From assembly GCF_026419855.1 (NCBI RefSeq), contig NZ_JAOAKP010000015.1, forward strand, positions 1-37,225: a DNA stretch of 37,225 nt, written 5' to 3'. The DNA is from Methanothrix sp. GTDB lineage: Archaea > Halobacteriota > Methanosarcinia > Methanotrichales > Methanotrichaceae. The notes under the pieces are model-generated. The model was not told where the DNA came from and ran no database searches. It saw only the letters and a program-made list of their open reading frames with translations. Positions 3,512-23,212 of the stretch are shown here, one piece after another. The position numbers and the translations under genes are program-made. The first letter of the stretch is position 1. The number at the start of each line of letters is the position of its first letter.

Positions 3512-4402
3512 TCAGATCATCACGCCAATAATCACATCGAGCATCAGCGCTGCGAAGAGCACAGCTCTGTAGTTTGCGCCCTGGTAGAAGAGCTTATCAC
3601 CGCGCGATGGCGTGGGGTTCCTGACGAAATCAGCGCACTGGATGAGCATCCAGACGCCTGATAGAAGTGCTGATGCTTGGTAGAGGGGGCCTAGTCCTGA
3701 GAACATGCCAAGCAGCAGCGACAGAATCACCCCTGCTGTCCAGAAGGCTGCCACCAGCTTCGATGTGAGGGGGATCCCATACGTCGCAGGGGTCGTGGGG
3801 ATGCCCTTTGCACGATCCCCGGGGACATCCCTGGATGCATCACAGTTTGTGAACCCCCAGTCTGTTATGCAGATCATGAGACCAAGGATGAGGGCTGCAG
3901 GATGGAAGCCAGGACCGGGCATGAGGTATCCTGCAGGCGATATGGCAAGCCAGACGCCCACGGGAACCATGCCGTAGGCAAGCCCGACGAATATCCAGCT
4001 CAGCGGCGTTCTACGCTTCGCCCATGCAGAGTAAGCTGTTATGATCGCGGTGGCGGCGAAGAGCATCACAAGGCTCTCAGGGTTGAGGTATGCTGCTGCA
4101 ACAGCAGCGAGCATGAGAAGTATAATGGCGTAGATGCCGGCGCCGCGTCTGCTGACCTTAGAGGAGGGGAGAGGCCTGCCCGGCATCGCCACCCTGTCAA
4201 CATCAACATCTACGTAATCGTTGAAGACGTATGAGCTGGTTATCGCAAAGTATGCTCCGATCGTTGCTATGATAAATGGCGCTGCTCCTGGAAGCGAGCC
4301 CGTGGTCGCGTACGCGGAGAGCAGAGCTGATGCGGCAGGAAGCGCCAGGTCCATGGGCGCCAGCGGGGGGCGGAGCAGCTCCAGGTATGCTCTCACATCC
4401 AT
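3512..4402 (-). CDS. UbiA-family prenyltransferase (second paralogue)
   Basis: This polytopic membrane protein of about 296 residues carries both UbiA motifs: NDYVDVDVDRVAMPGRPLPS and DASRDVPGDRAKGIPTTP. The frame extends to a GTG at 4411 that overlaps the pgi stop. I prefer the ATG at 4402, which gives the usual UbiA opening (MDVRAYLELLRPP) and has GGAG a suitable distance upstream. It differs clearly from the DGGGP synthase-like enzyme at 559-1362 and is closer in look to chlorophyll/quinone-type UbiA enzymes. Organisms of this group use methanophenazine, a prenylated phenazine, as membrane electron carrier, so attaching that prenyl chain is one possible role (inference). It lies directly behind pgi on the same strand. 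Confidence 0.85.
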   Translation of the reverse strand: MDVRAYLELLRPPLAPMDLALPAASALLSAYATTGSLPGAAPFIIATIGAYFAITSSYVFNDYVDVDVDRVAMPGRPLPSSKVSRRGAGIYAIILLMLAAVAAAYLNPESLVMLFAATAIITAYSAWAKRRTPLSWIFVGLAYGMVPVGVWLAISPAGYLMPGPGFHPAALILGLMICITDWGFTNCDASRDVPGDRAKGIPTTPATYGIPLTSKLVAAFWTAGVILSLLLGMFSGLGPLYQASALLSGVWMLIQCADFVRNPTPSRGDKLFYQGANYRAVLFAALMLDVIIGVMI

Positions 4403-5485: not shown

Positions 5486-5675
5486 GCATCGCATGTATCT
5501 GAGCTCAATGATACAGGTACATGGCCGGAGATCGCAGGCCGGACATTATAGTCCTTTGCGTCAGTTCATATAAGCCAATTTAAAATATGCTGGATATGCC
5601 GCAATTCCTACATGATTTTATGTAATATGAATATTATATCAACTTATGCAGAATACTATAGTCGCAGGCCGCAAG

Positions 5676-5713
5676 CTCCGGCCTTCATGCTGGAGAGTGA
5701 GTCAGGCGACTCA
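5676..5713 (+). repeat. Two adjacent hairpins in the leader of the exported-protein gene
   Basis: The first hairpin, ctccggcc-ttca-tgctggag (5676-5695), is a decayed member of the CTCCGGCC hairpin family seen elsewhere in the window. The second, tgagtc-aggc-gactca (5698-5713), is perfect. They lie 60-100 nt before the ATG at 5772, so they would be in its leader if transcription starts from the AT-rich DNA before 5660. Confidence 0.5.
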
Positions 5714-7552: not shown

Positions 7553-8011
7553 ATGAGCAAAACTGAAGCGCTTATTCTTATGGGATGCCCTGAGGTGCCG
7601 GTTCAGATGAGCATTGTGCTATACCTCTCCGGGGCTCTAAGGGACAAAGGAGCTGATGTCTTCATCGCTGGAAACCCCGCAGCTTTAAACCTCGCCAGGG
7701 TCGCGGATCGGAAGAGATGCTACGTGGGAAGATTGATCGAGCTTGAGCGAGCGATAGCGGATATCGTCGAGAAGAGGCGATCTTTCAACATCTGCTTCGC
7801 CCTCGCTCACAACGATGCTGGGATCACATATGCTGCAACTGTCAGGGCGCTGCTGCCGGAATCAAAGTTCTTCATGATAATCTTCGGCAGGAACGCGGAG
7901 GAGCTTGCTGGCACTGTGGATTTTGATGTGGAGATGATCGTGGAGAAGGCGGTCCACAACCCTCTCGGGCTGAAGAAAAAGATTGACGGGGTGCTGGCAT
8001 GGGCTGTATAG
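7553..8011 (+). CDS. DUF1890 family methanogen protein
   Basis: This 152-residue protein matches DUF1890, a family found essentially in methanogens and normally paired with DUF1894, as here. It opens with a Rossmann-like beta-alpha unit (EALILMGCPEVPVQMSIVLY) and contains GADVFIAGNPAALNLARVAD, suggesting a nucleotide- or cofactor-binding fold. The catalytic role is unknown. A GGAGG stands at 7544-7548, just before the ATG. It overlaps the DUF1894 gene by 13 nt. The constant pairing of the two families suggests a two-subunit complex or pathway linked to methanogenesis (inference). Confidence 0.85.
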   Translation: MSKTEALILMGCPEVPVQMSIVLYLSGALRDKGADVFIAGNPAALNLARVADRKRCYVGRLIELERAIADIVEKRRSFNICFALAHNDAGITYAATVRALLPESKFFMIIFGRNAEELAGTVDFDVEMIVEKAVHNPLGLKKKIDGVLAWAV

Positions 8012-8307
8012 AGATGCTCAAACCCCAGGTTCTTCTGAGAGGAATATCGTTCAGAGAGGCCAGAGAGTACATAGAGTCGAACTGCGACGAATACTACTAT
8101 TTCCAGCCAGGGTTCAAGCTCTTCGGCGAGTACATAATTGGAGTGCCACCGATAGCTGTTGGTATCATGAAGGACGGCAGCGTTGTGTTTCCATACACAA
8201 AACCATGCCATGGCACCTTTGTGCTGAAGCACAGGGACGAGGCAGAGGCAGAGCGGGTCAGGAAGCTGGGGAAGGAGGAGGTCATTAGATCCCTAAAGAG
8301 GCGTTGA
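7999..8307 (+). CDS. DUF1894 family methanogen protein
   Basis: This 102-residue protein matches DUF1894; the segment LLRGISFREAREYIESNCDE is typical of the family. It starts inside the 3' end of the DUF1890 gene, so the two are translationally coupled. The start at 7999 gives the family-like opening (MGCIEMLK); an ATG at 8014 is possible. No catalytic motif is evident. The stop codon TGA (8305-8307) is the first element of the repeat that contains the hairpin at 8329-8348, so the last codon is at the border of inserted DNA. Confidence 0.82.
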   Translation: MGCIEMLKPQVLLRGISFREAREYIESNCDEYYYFQPGFKLFGEYIIGVPPIAVGIMKDGSVVFPYTKPCHGTFVLKHRDEAEAERVRKLGKEEVIRSLKRR

Positions 8308-8349
8308 TGGAGAGCATCAGGGCACAAACTCCGGTCTCCAGGCCGGAGA
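8305..8349 (+). repeat. Hairpin repeat, IS200/IS605-TnpB right-end-like, copy 1
   Basis: The unit is tgatggagagcatcag followed by a short spacer and the hairpin ctccggtc-tcca-ggccggag (8329-8348), an 8-bp stem with one G-U wobble and a 4-nt loop. It matches 12881-12925 over about 45 bp. The tail gaggaggtca (8347-8356) resembles the sequence that follows right-end hairpins of archaeal IS200/IS605 TnpB elements, and it now supplies the ribosome binding site of the moaD-like gene. No transposase or TnpB gene is present nearby. Confidence 0.6.
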
Positions 8350-8359
8350 GGAGGTCATA

Positions 8360-8638
8360 ATGAGGATAAAGATCAGGGCGTTCGCCAGCTTCAGGGAGAT
8401 TCTGGGAAGGGAGATGCTGGTCGAGATCGAGAGCGGATCCCGGGTATCGGATCTAATAAACCACCTCTGTAAAATCAAGCCAGATCTCAGGAGGGCGCTC
8501 TTCTCCGATACAGGAGAGCTCAGGGATTACTTCATAATCATGCTCAACCGGCGGCGGCTGGATCTTCCGAAGGATCTCGAGGCGGCAATTTCTGACAACG
8601 ACGAGGTTGCCATATTCCCGCCTGTGGCAGGTGGTTGA
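8360..8638 (+). CDS. moaD: MoaD/ThiS-family ubiquitin-like sulfur carrier
   Basis: This 92-residue protein is a beta-grasp sulfur carrier. It opens with IKIRAFASFREILGRE, contains LNRRRLDLPKDLEAAISDNDEVAIFPPV and ends in Gly-Gly. In MoaD the C-terminal Gly-Gly is activated and converted to a thiocarboxylate, which donates sulfur to molybdopterin. The gene directly before moaE supports that role. In archaea such proteins can also serve as SAMP-type protein modifiers. A strong site gaggaggt at 8347-8354 precedes the ATG, and it lies in the tail of the hairpin repeat. The stop is directly followed by the TTG start of moaE. Confidence 0.88.
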   Translation: MRIKIRAFASFREILGREMLVEIESGSRVSDLINHLCKIKPDLRRALFSDTGELRDYFIIMLNRRRLDLPKDLEAAISDNDEVAIFPPVAGG

Positions 8639-9037
8639 TTGATATCTGACAGCGAGATAGATCTGGAAGAGCTGCTCAATCGCTCCATGAAGCCTGACGC
8701 TGGCGCGGTGGTCGCATTTGTTGGGGTTGTGAGAGCCGACCCGGGGGTCAGGGCCCTTGAGGTGGAGGCATATGAGGAGGCAGCCCTGGAGGAGCTCAGA
8801 AGGATAAAGGATGAGGCCATCGGCCGCTTCGGCGTCTCATCAGTGGATGTTGCGCACCGGAAGGGCCGCCTCTCGCTGGGTGAGGTGATCGTTGTGGTGG
8901 TATGCGCATCAGCTCATCGAAAAGAGGCATTTCAGGCTTGTGAGTATGTCATCGAGGAGCTGAAGAGAAGGGTTCCCATATGGAAAAAGGAGCTGACGGA
9001 GGAGGGTGAAAGATGGGTGAGAGGCGATGCATGCTGA
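8639..9037 (+). CDS. moaE: Molybdopterin synthase catalytic subunit MoaE
   Basis: This 132-residue protein is the large subunit of molybdopterin synthase, which with MoaD converts precursor Z (cPMP) to molybdopterin. The family signatures are present: GAVVAFVGVVR near the N-terminus, LEVEAYEEAALEELRRI, VDVAHRKGRLSLGE, and near the C-terminus RRVPIWKKE with the conserved Lys pair. The start is a TTG at 8639, immediately after the moaD stop, since the family has about 20 residues before GAVVAF. In a methanogen the cofactor is needed for the Mo/W formylmethanofuran dehydrogenase. The 3' end overlaps cutA by 25 nt. Confidence 0.92.
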   Translation: MISDSEIDLEELLNRSMKPDAGAVVAFVGVVRADPGVRALEVEAYEEAALEELRRIKDEAIGRFGVSSVDVAHRKGRLSLGEVIVVVVCASAHRKEAFQACEYVIEELKRRVPIWKKELTEEGERWVRGDAC

Positions 9038-12733: not shown

Positions 12734-13002
12734 GGCGGGCGTGAAGGACTGCCGCCTCATGTCAACGTTTTTGAATCATTTTTATCTAAACAGGTTTGCG
12801 GATGCTGATAGCCCTCTCTACGTCTGCATCTGCAGGCGGCTCGCAAGATATCGCATGCCTACAGAAGAGGCTCGCCAGAATGATGGAGAGCATCAGACCG
12901 CAGACTCCGGCCATCAGGCCGGAGACAACGAATGCAGTTACAGAGTTGGCTTGTGGGACCACAATCGTAGTTACGCACAATGGTAATGATGAGGACCGGA
13001 AA
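12734..13002. other. Gap before the radical SAM gene, with repeat and possible promoter
   Basis: This stretch contains a TATA-like sequence (tttttatcta, 12780-12789) and hairpin repeat copy 2 (12881-12925). The downstream radical SAM frame is open through it from a TTG at 12796, but the encoded 69 residues show no family resemblance and include the repeat. Confidence 0.5.
12881..12925 (+). repeat. Hairpin repeat, IS200/IS605-TnpB right-end-like, copy 2
   Basis: The unit is tgatggagagcatcag, a short spacer, and the perfect hairpin ctccggcc-atca-ggccggag (12905-12924). It matches 8305-8349 closely. It lies about 80 nt before the probable start of the radical SAM gene and would form in its leader. 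Confidence 0.6.
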
Positions 13003-18633: not shown

Positions 18634-19689
18634 GTGCATCGAGACGGGATAGAGCTTCCCACACCGGATGCGAGAAAGTCGATCACGCTGGTGGTGATCG
18701 GCACAGCACTGTATCTCATCTATCTATACCACGTCGGGTTCCCAGATATAGCCGAGAGCATTAGATCTGTGGATATCCGCATATTCTCGCTCGGATTCGT
18801 CCTAGCGCTTCTCGGCGTGCTCTTCGATGGGCTCGCCTGGAGGCGTGTTGCCATCAAGTTCGACTGCAGGATGTCGATAGCGGACGCGTTTTTTATGTAC
18901 CTGTCTTGCATATTCCTGAACAATCTAATACCATCTGGCAGCTTCTCTGGCGAGACCGCCAGAATATATTTCCTGGAGAAGATCGCGTCTCCTGGTATAG
19001 ATAAATCCTCGGCGACGGTAGCTGCGACGCGCATAATCACAGCTGTGCCGTTCTTCTTTGGTGTGGTGATCGGTATGGCCTATCTGGTGCTCGAGACGAG
19101 CGCGCCGGCATGGGCGATCGCGACATGCTCAGGGATTGCGGTTGTTCTTCTTGGAATCAATGCGATATTCGTAGGTATATGCTTCTCCAGCGGCTGGCTT
19201 GAGGGAATCATATCGAGGCTGATCGAGTTCGTGGAAAGGGTGTTCCATCGCAGGATCGACAGGAGCATGTGTATCGGAATAGTCCGCAGATTTCATTCAG
19301 CGATGAGCGGATTCACGGAGCACAGGTGGACGATCGTTGTGAGCACAGCCTGGGCATTTGCAGCCTGGCTCTGCATGAATCTGGTCGCGTTTGTCACGTT
19401 CAGATCAATGGGCATCGAGGTATCGATGTGGGCGATATTCGCGGTCTATGCTGTGATGATATTCATCCAGATGCTGCCCCTGGTGCTCCCCGGCGGAATC
19501 GGGCTCGTCGATATAGTGATGATAACGCTCTTCAGCGCCATTGGGGTTCCCACAAGCTACGCTGTCGCCGCAACGATACTATCCAGGCTGATACAGCTCT
19601 GGTTCCTCACGATCGCAGGAGGCGCTGCCACCGCGTACCTTCTTAGAAGAATAGATGGAACCCAGAAGGGATCAAAGAGCCCAGCATGA
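18634..19689 (+). CDS. Flippase-like integral membrane protein (YbhN/AglD, UPF0104 family)
   Basis: This 351-residue protein has about eight hydrophobic segments and the family signatures FFMYLSCIFLNNLIPSGSFS and, near the C-terminus, LPLVLPGGIGLVDIVMI. The family contains the lysylphosphatidylglycerol synthase membrane region, YbhN and archaeal AglD C-terminal domains; it is thought to move lipid-linked molecules across the membrane. The specific substrate is unknown; dolichol- or polyprenyl-linked sugars are possible in an organism that glycosylates its surface proteins. The GTG at 18634 follows a TATA box at leaderless spacing. It stands alone, with 214 nt before the next gene. Confidence 0.85.
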   Translation: MHRDGIELPTPDARKSITLVVIGTALYLIYLYHVGFPDIAESIRSVDIRIFSLGFVLALLGVLFDGLAWRRVAIKFDCRMSIADAFFMYLSCIFLNNLIPSGSFSGETARIYFLEKIASPGIDKSSATVAATRIITAVPFFFGVVIGMAYLVLETSAPAWAIATCSGIAVVLLGINAIFVGICFSSGWLEGIISRLIEFVERVFHRRIDRSMCIGIVRRFHSAMSGFTEHRWTIVVSTAWAFAAWLCMNLVAFVTFRSMGIEVSMWAIFAVYAVMIFIQMLPLVLPGGIGLVDIVMITLFSAIGVPTSYAVAATILSRLIQLWFLTIAGGAATAYLLRRIDGTQKGSKSPA

Positions 19690-19903
19690 TAGAGAAATGG
19701 CAGGGCGCAAACACCAATCTTTGGATGAAGCCCGTACGAAGGAGATAAGTGCAATATAGATCATCCCACATTCCGCACTGGAGCTCCAGTTCGTATATCC
19801 CTCACATTCTGGCCCTGATTGTTCGAGTGGGTTCTGCAAGTATCCGCAGCCACTCAGCGCAGAGCTATATCTCAGGCTGCAGGGTATTCTGAAAGGTGAT
19901 TCT

Positions 19904-23192: not shown

Positions 23193-23212
23193 CTCCGGCC
23201 TTCAGGCTGTAG
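23193..23212 (+). repeat. Hairpin repeat, IS200/IS605-TnpB right-end-like, copy 3 (decayed)
   Basis: ctccggcc-ttca-ggctgtag has the classical CCTTCAGG core with a partly lost 3' arm. It overlaps the 3' end of the FwdC-like gene: the loop ttca, read on the minus strand, provides that gene's TGA stop. Confidence 0.5.

Follow-up and report, generated by a model that had tools for sequence, protein, structure and literature searches.

The locus analysed here lies in a window of 37,225 nucleotides from Methanothrix sp. (the whole stretch of DNA studied). Pfam identifies the neighbouring genes as DUF1890, DUF1894 and ThiS/MoaD, then MoaE (PF02391) and CutA1 (PF03091). Between DUF1894, whose TGA stop occupies 8305-8307, and moaD, whose ATG begins at 8360, sits a unit composed of TGAT and the 50 bases that follow (8309-8358), which is longer than the stretch delimited by an earlier, sequence-only reading of this DNA. 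Hairpin and purine-rich tail, like the stop of DUF1894 and the start of moaD, are found just as that reading described them (Table 1). The hairpin, CTCCGGTC-TCCA-GGCCGGAG, forms 8 pairs including one G-U and folds moderately better than shuffled sequences (z -1.6 and -1.8; 11 and 6 of 200 shuffles equal it). In the predicted fold, AGGAG stays single-stranded; it is flanked on one side by the hairpin and on the other by a weak outer helix of 3 pairs that contains the next GUC. A search of Rfam with 7900-8700 gave no match. The window also holds a short remnant at 19687-19714, consisting of the left part TGATAGAGA..GCAGGGCGCAAA alone, without the hairpin.

Table 1. Features of the DUF1894-moaD intergenic region and further family copies in the window.
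Feature	Position	Strand	Basis
DUF1894 gene, upstream; insertion target includes its TGA stop	7999..8307	+	ORF; Pfam PF08979, E 7.3e-35
Target TGAT (TTGAT from 8304), putative element inserted after it	8305..8308	+	34/47 scored copies in the window's genome; empty sites of locus L046; likeness to ISDra2
LE-derived part	8309..8328	+	Consensus against LE of a tnpB element from genome G001 19/20, against RE 6/20
Hairpin common to LE and RE, 8-bp stem, 4-base loop	8329..8348	+	Consensus against LE hairpin 20/20, RE hairpin 19/20; fold
RE-derived tail with Shine-Dalgarno-like GGAGGT (8350-8355)	8349..8358	+	RE 9/10, LE 0/10; predicted anti-SD duplex -11.3 kcal/mol
moaD (ThiS/MoaD family), ATG 5 bases 3' of GGAGG	8360..8638	+	Pfam ThiS PF02597, E 4e-14
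Second family copy, degenerate right tail	12881..12928	+	Model R1, E 2.5e-11
Third family copy, decayed	5654..5705	+	Model R1, E 1.1e-8

The unit belongs to a dispersed family. With up to 3 mismatches allowed, the 1.9-Mb genome matches the 20-base hairpin pattern 40 times on the forward and 29 times on the reverse strand, some places being counted on both since the pattern is palindromic; the reversed control gives 0 and 1 matches, and the frequency of the pattern is far beyond chance. When 42 places were read with their flanks, 23 agreed at 12 or more of 20 positions in the left part and at 5 or more of 10 in the tail with the unit, TGAT followed by AGAGAGTAGCAGGGCGCAAA-CTCCGGTCTTCAGGCCGGAG-AGGAGGTCAC. 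The 16 better copies, aligned without gaps (alignment A2), were used to build a model of the unit. Counting matches with E up to 0.01, and with the ends of full elements included, this model finds at least 67 places in the window's genome (G000) and, in five relatives of the same genus, at least 115 (G001), 58 (G002), 15 (G003), 22 (G004) and 17 (G005); outside the genus, 5 of 19 genomes have matches, at least 1 to 10 places each. Against model R1 the window unit scores 76.9 bits, this copy itself being among the model's input sequences.

The anatomy of the unit becomes apparent in the sister genome G001, which has open tnpB frames and where 15 TnpB matches represent 14 distinct places. Eleven of these end in a hairpin of the moaD-unit type, 8 with the tail AGRAAGTCAC (R being G in 7 and A in 1) and 3 with TAGTTGAC; two more end in other hairpins, and the sequence of one lies outside the comparison. 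The elements are laid out as TTGAT, AGAGAATAGCAGGGCGCAAA-hairpin-TAAGCCCG, tnpB and hairpin-AGGAAGTCAC, and the left end (LE) thus carries the same hairpin as the right end (RE). Set against a 1,288-bp element of this genome, the first 20 bases of the solo consensus match LE at 19/20 and RE at 6/20, the hairpin matches that of LE at 20/20 and that of RE at 19/20, and the last 10 bases match RE at 9/10 and LE at 0/10. Fusing the two ends of this element in silico reproduces 48/50 positions of the solo consensus and 42/50 of the window copy. Because of this pattern of matches the 50-bp unit is, as judged from sequence, LE plus RE of an IS200/IS605-type TnpB element, fused at their common 20-base hairpin.

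This bears on several claims of the sequence-only reading. A TnpB-type IS200/IS605 origin has been confirmed by the G001 ends. The description as a solo right end has to be abandoned, since the left 20 bases are LE and not RE, and the unit is such a fusion, one of dozens of copies. The expectation that TnpB elements end in the same hairpin holds in G001; in the window's own genome, on the other hand, the one PF07282 match, a broken one located elsewhere, has a different end hairpin, with the tail AGGAAGTCAC. The absence of tnpA stated there extends to the whole genome, which has 0 Y1 matches; for tnpB, the genome has that one broken match.

Encoding no Y1 TnpA, the unit is a derivative rather than an autonomous member of IS200/IS605; it does share the fixed target of that family at its left border. 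Of the same-genus genomes, G000, G001, G002, G004 and G005 have no Y1 match and G003 has one. In G012, a genome from another genus of the same family, the same LE twice precedes a Y1 tnpA match, in one case an intact frame and in the other a partial match; this connects the ends with an IS200/IS605 element that carries TnpA. At the G012 locus L211 (about 108-1113), the Y1 tnpA frame behind this LE is intact and a fragment of tnpB is present as well, which makes the locus a candidate for the kind of transposase source.

Insertion can be seen directly where relatives retain the empty site. Joined flanks were searched against the five same-genus genomes (14 of 26 pairs were searched, and junctions were read for 7, at 21 loci). 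At L046, an exact 50-bp insertion lies between GTGAT and GCTTGTG, with no target duplication, and the site is empty in 5/5 relatives, reading GTGAT in G002-G005 and GTGAC in G001. L030 is empty in G004 and G005 (AATGAT followed by AGAGCGG) and occupied in G001; the alignment puts AGAG inside the element, since the element too begins with AG. At L012, the G002 sequence reads as an empty site with an altered flank, and in G001 the match runs straight through. Junctions at L019, L038 and L016 have diverged beyond reading, and the clean reads are thus L046, L030 and moaD. In G002 one gene reads through the L046 site; the unit (about 483-532) cuts its 5' part, by eye the signal-peptide part of a repeat-protein gene, and an in-frame GTG 8 bases after the GGAGG of the unit could restart the protein without its apparent signal peptide.

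At moaD itself the site is empty in three relatives, with AAGAGGCGTTGACC-ATG in G004 and G005 and GGCGCTGAT-ATG in G003. G001 has TGATGGCGAGCAGGGCGCAAAATCTTGGCAGAGGTTATC-ATG, a decayed copy from which the hairpin has gone. In G002, moaD is preceded by about 400 bp resembling a decayed tnpB element, with an LE-like start and an RE-like end one base before the ATG, the same distance as in the window: identity to the tnpB 5' part is 72% over 112 bases (E 4e-9) and an RE match covers 21 bases (E 0.013); a protein search gave no significant match. Its RE resembles another hairpin type, and its left flank is not DUF1894, which stands elsewhere in G002. Among the sites compared, none cleanly pairs a full element in one genome with a solo unit in another. 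The decayed G002 element (L110, about 3590-4008), which abuts moaD with DUF1894 separated, may mark a rearrangement breakpoint.

These data speak decisively against a regulatory hairpin native to the DUF1894-moaD operon, and we see practically no room for one: the position between co-directional genes would suit it, but the site is empty in three same-genus genomes, dozens of copies lie elsewhere, Rfam recognizes nothing here, and 24 moaD loci of other genera have no unit-model match between DUF1894 and moaD (E up to 10). Conservation in distant relatives, which the sequence-only reading named as grounds for its own refutation, is not seen at these loci.

We favour, with a probability of roughly 0.8, a history in which a TnpB element inserted 3' of TTGAT, was reduced to the 50-bp unit and thereby had its tail placed as the Shine-Dalgarno (SD) sequence of moaD. 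An IS200/IS605-type element with tnpB would have inserted 3' of the TTGAT that holds the DUF1894 stop, one base before the moaD ATG, at an empty site that would have read TTGAT-AATG; the empty sites observed are TTGACCATG and CTGATATG. The end hairpins of such an element are near-identical 20-base direct repeats, and deletion between them would remove tnpB and leave a terminal-only 50-bp unit with the LE part, one hairpin and the RE tail. This anatomy is read directly from the alignments; we infer the deletion, which would have taken place at moaD or before the arrival of the unit. Insertion would then have widened the gap from the stop of DUF1894 to the start of moaD to 52 bases, compared with 1-2 in relatives, and the RE tail AGGAGGTCAT, by its observed position and predicted pairing, may now serve as the moaD SD. 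The empty sites in relatives illustrate how a TnpB element may shrink to a scar of 50 bp, which can end up on the start signal of a house-keeping gene. Such a history would also explain why this methanogen genus has a dispersed hairpin family, one that could be taken for a regulatory RNA.

Comparable remnants are known elsewhere. Haloquadratum walsbyi has terminal-only forms of 52 bp, derived from the PATE HqIRS46 and from the TnpB-bearing transposon ISHwa23 by deletion between palindromes close to the termini (22 bp and 19 bp long, respectively); PATEs cause no target duplication and show strain-specific insertions, and the authors say that the 52-bp form may be mobile (PMC3119063). The Methanothrix unit resembles these forms in its palindrome with an 8-bp stem near the termini, in being 50 bp long and too short to code, in its sharp borders without target duplication (L046 against five empty relatives, L030 against G004 and G005), in its fused IS605-type termini (with the deletion again a matter of inference) and in insertions that differ between close relatives (L046, L030, moaD). 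It differs in host, Methanothrix not being a haloarchaeon, in length (50 rather than 52 bp), and in having one copy where the SD of a gene would lie, a placement that the consulted passages on the Haloquadratum forms do not mention (PMC3119063). In the features tested, the Methanothrix unit fits a terminal-only IS605 derivative of the Haloquadratum kind. Borrelia carries free-standing IS605 stem loops without transposase, retained next to genes; these are single left or right stem loops at gene 3' ends, kept as RNA structures (PMC2775950), whereas the Methanothrix unit is an LE/RE fusion before a start codon. ISDra2, an IS200/IS605 element with TnpA and TnpB, targets TTGAT and inserts 3' of it without duplication (PMC8612924); the Methanothrix unit does likewise but consists of fused ends only, without transposase or TnpB.

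The coincidence of unit border and stop codon follows from the target. For border scoring, 54 places in G000 were tried, 7 scored too low and 47 were counted, of which 34 have TGAT exactly at the left border. The DUF1894 stop does form the 5' border, as the sequence-only reading had it, because the target TGAT contains TGA. More generally, 15/47 copies terminate a frame of 80 codons or more at this border, compared with 40/425 TGAT sites in the window (binomial p 1.6e-5, with copies that are related, a control of one window and a frame test that ignores real annotation); 14 of the 15 do so by TGA at the target and one by TAA further left. Insertion directly 3' of a stop leaves the gene whole, and the enrichment thus fits simple tolerance.

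Whether the tail acts as a ribosome site was approached by comparison, by taking, for the 25 bases 5' of each start, the best pairing with the anti-SD AUCACCUCCU (the genome contains CTGGATCACCTCCT once). Among 25 moaD loci, with starts set by alignment and doubtful in L102 and L103, the window moaD has the strongest predicted duplex, at -11.3 kcal/mol, with GGAGG 5 bases from the ATG. At the empty sites, pairing is -5.8 in G004 and G005, through GAGG in the last codons of DUF1894, and -8.7 in G003, further upstream and off SD spacing. Against the capture, GAGG in those last codons could still support reinitiation. Pairing in G001 (-7.0) and G002 (-5.8) is no stronger than at empty sites. AGAGGT in G001 and AAAGGT in G002 still precede the ATG, though the hairpin has decayed; a purine tract in three genomes offers only little evidence of selection. 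The proposal that moaD has captured this tail as its ribosome site is supported by comparison, in position and predicted pairing, and the tail may be used as such.

The strongest competing explanation, which we regard as unlikely but deserving of serious weight, is a neutral insertion with an incidental GGAGG, in which translation of moaD would still start by reinitiation behind DUF1894 or at some other site. First of all, many copies with an SD-like RE tail have no gene start nearby, as this explanation would have it. Second, the family shows no enrichment in front of start codons: the start of a frame of 80 codons or more falls at -2 to +8 in 4/47 G000 copies (3 with the RE-type tail) compared with 76/425 TGAT control sites of the window, and in 0/28 copies of G001, 0/12 of G002 and 2/7 of G003-G005, these two being L271 (ATG, with a tail off the RE pattern) and L274 (TTG). 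A general role of the family as SD donor is therefore rejected. At moaD, on the other hand, neutrality has to accommodate a gap widened from 1-2 to 52 bases, the strongest pairing of the set at a 5-base spacing, and a purine tract kept before the ATG in the decayed G001 and G002 copies. We thus see moaD as a single likely capture, well placed, and not as a family function. Among open-licence full texts, we found no report of a unit of fused IS605 ends as a ribosome site. Elsewhere, the tail AGAGGAAGTCGC of L271 (in G004) directly abuts an ATG that opens a frame of 116 codons or more, a possible second ribosome-site capture.

Two further explanations are very improbable. In one, the locus is a right end that still yields a TnpB guide (omega) RNA with its 3' end at the moaD unit. 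Tail and hairpin match the RE ends of tnpB elements and the bordering TTGAT resembles the ISDra2 TAM, but the left 20 bases are those of LE, and the unit is 50 bp long whereas the ISDra2 reRNA has about 150 nt including the tnpB 3' end (PMC8612924). The window's genome, with just one broken PF07282 match, moreover falls short of an intact TnpB. In the other, equally improbable, the unit is a repeat of the REP type that a domesticated TnpA (TnpA-REP) has spread. REP elements are short dispersed palindromes tied to Y1 transposases, and a short high-copy palindrome related to IS200/IS605 ends recalls them; there is, however, no Y1 gene in the window's genome, nor in 4/5 same-genus relatives, and the borders of the unit are those of a tnpB element, whose LE and RE it clearly fuses.

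A bolder reading can be entertained tentatively, at rather less than even odds: single-hairpin 50-bp fusions would themselves be mobile, with TnpA lost or acting in trans, and would act as linkers combining a stop with a ribosome site, the coupling at moaD having been replaced by independent initiation. Two patterns are relevant to mobility. Solo copies in G000 far outnumber its tnpB matches, and either cores were lost or 50-bp units moved themselves. The tail AGGAGGTCA occurs in 8/16 copies of alignment A2 (AGGAAGTCA in 1/16), while the 8 G001 TnpB right ends carry AGGAAGTCAC or AGAAAGTCAC; a tail variant shared among solos would be in keeping with the solo unit itself having spread, or with a lost parent type. 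If mobile, the 50-bp fusions would be among the smallest mobile elements, and if the linker role is true, the TGAT stop and the SD-like GGAGG would make each intergenic insertion a ready-made linker. The family provides insertion sites at which the mobility of single-hairpin elements can be tested.

Other dispersed sequences lie close to this family. A second family of solo ends (window 23193-23212; L020, L022, L024, L033, L045) has the form ...TCTCGGACATGTCGGATTCTCCGCATGG...hairpin, with a similar hairpin and a tail, mostly YAGTTGAC, that is the tail of another G001 tnpB group (L126, L129, L132). A dispersed AT-rich repeat (TATAGTATTCCGCATAAGTTGATATAATATTACATATTACATAAAATTATGTATGAAG...) at the right flank of L026, with many matches in G004 and G005, adjoins some of the 50-bp units (by eye also L015, L021 and L011) and looks like a separate MITE.
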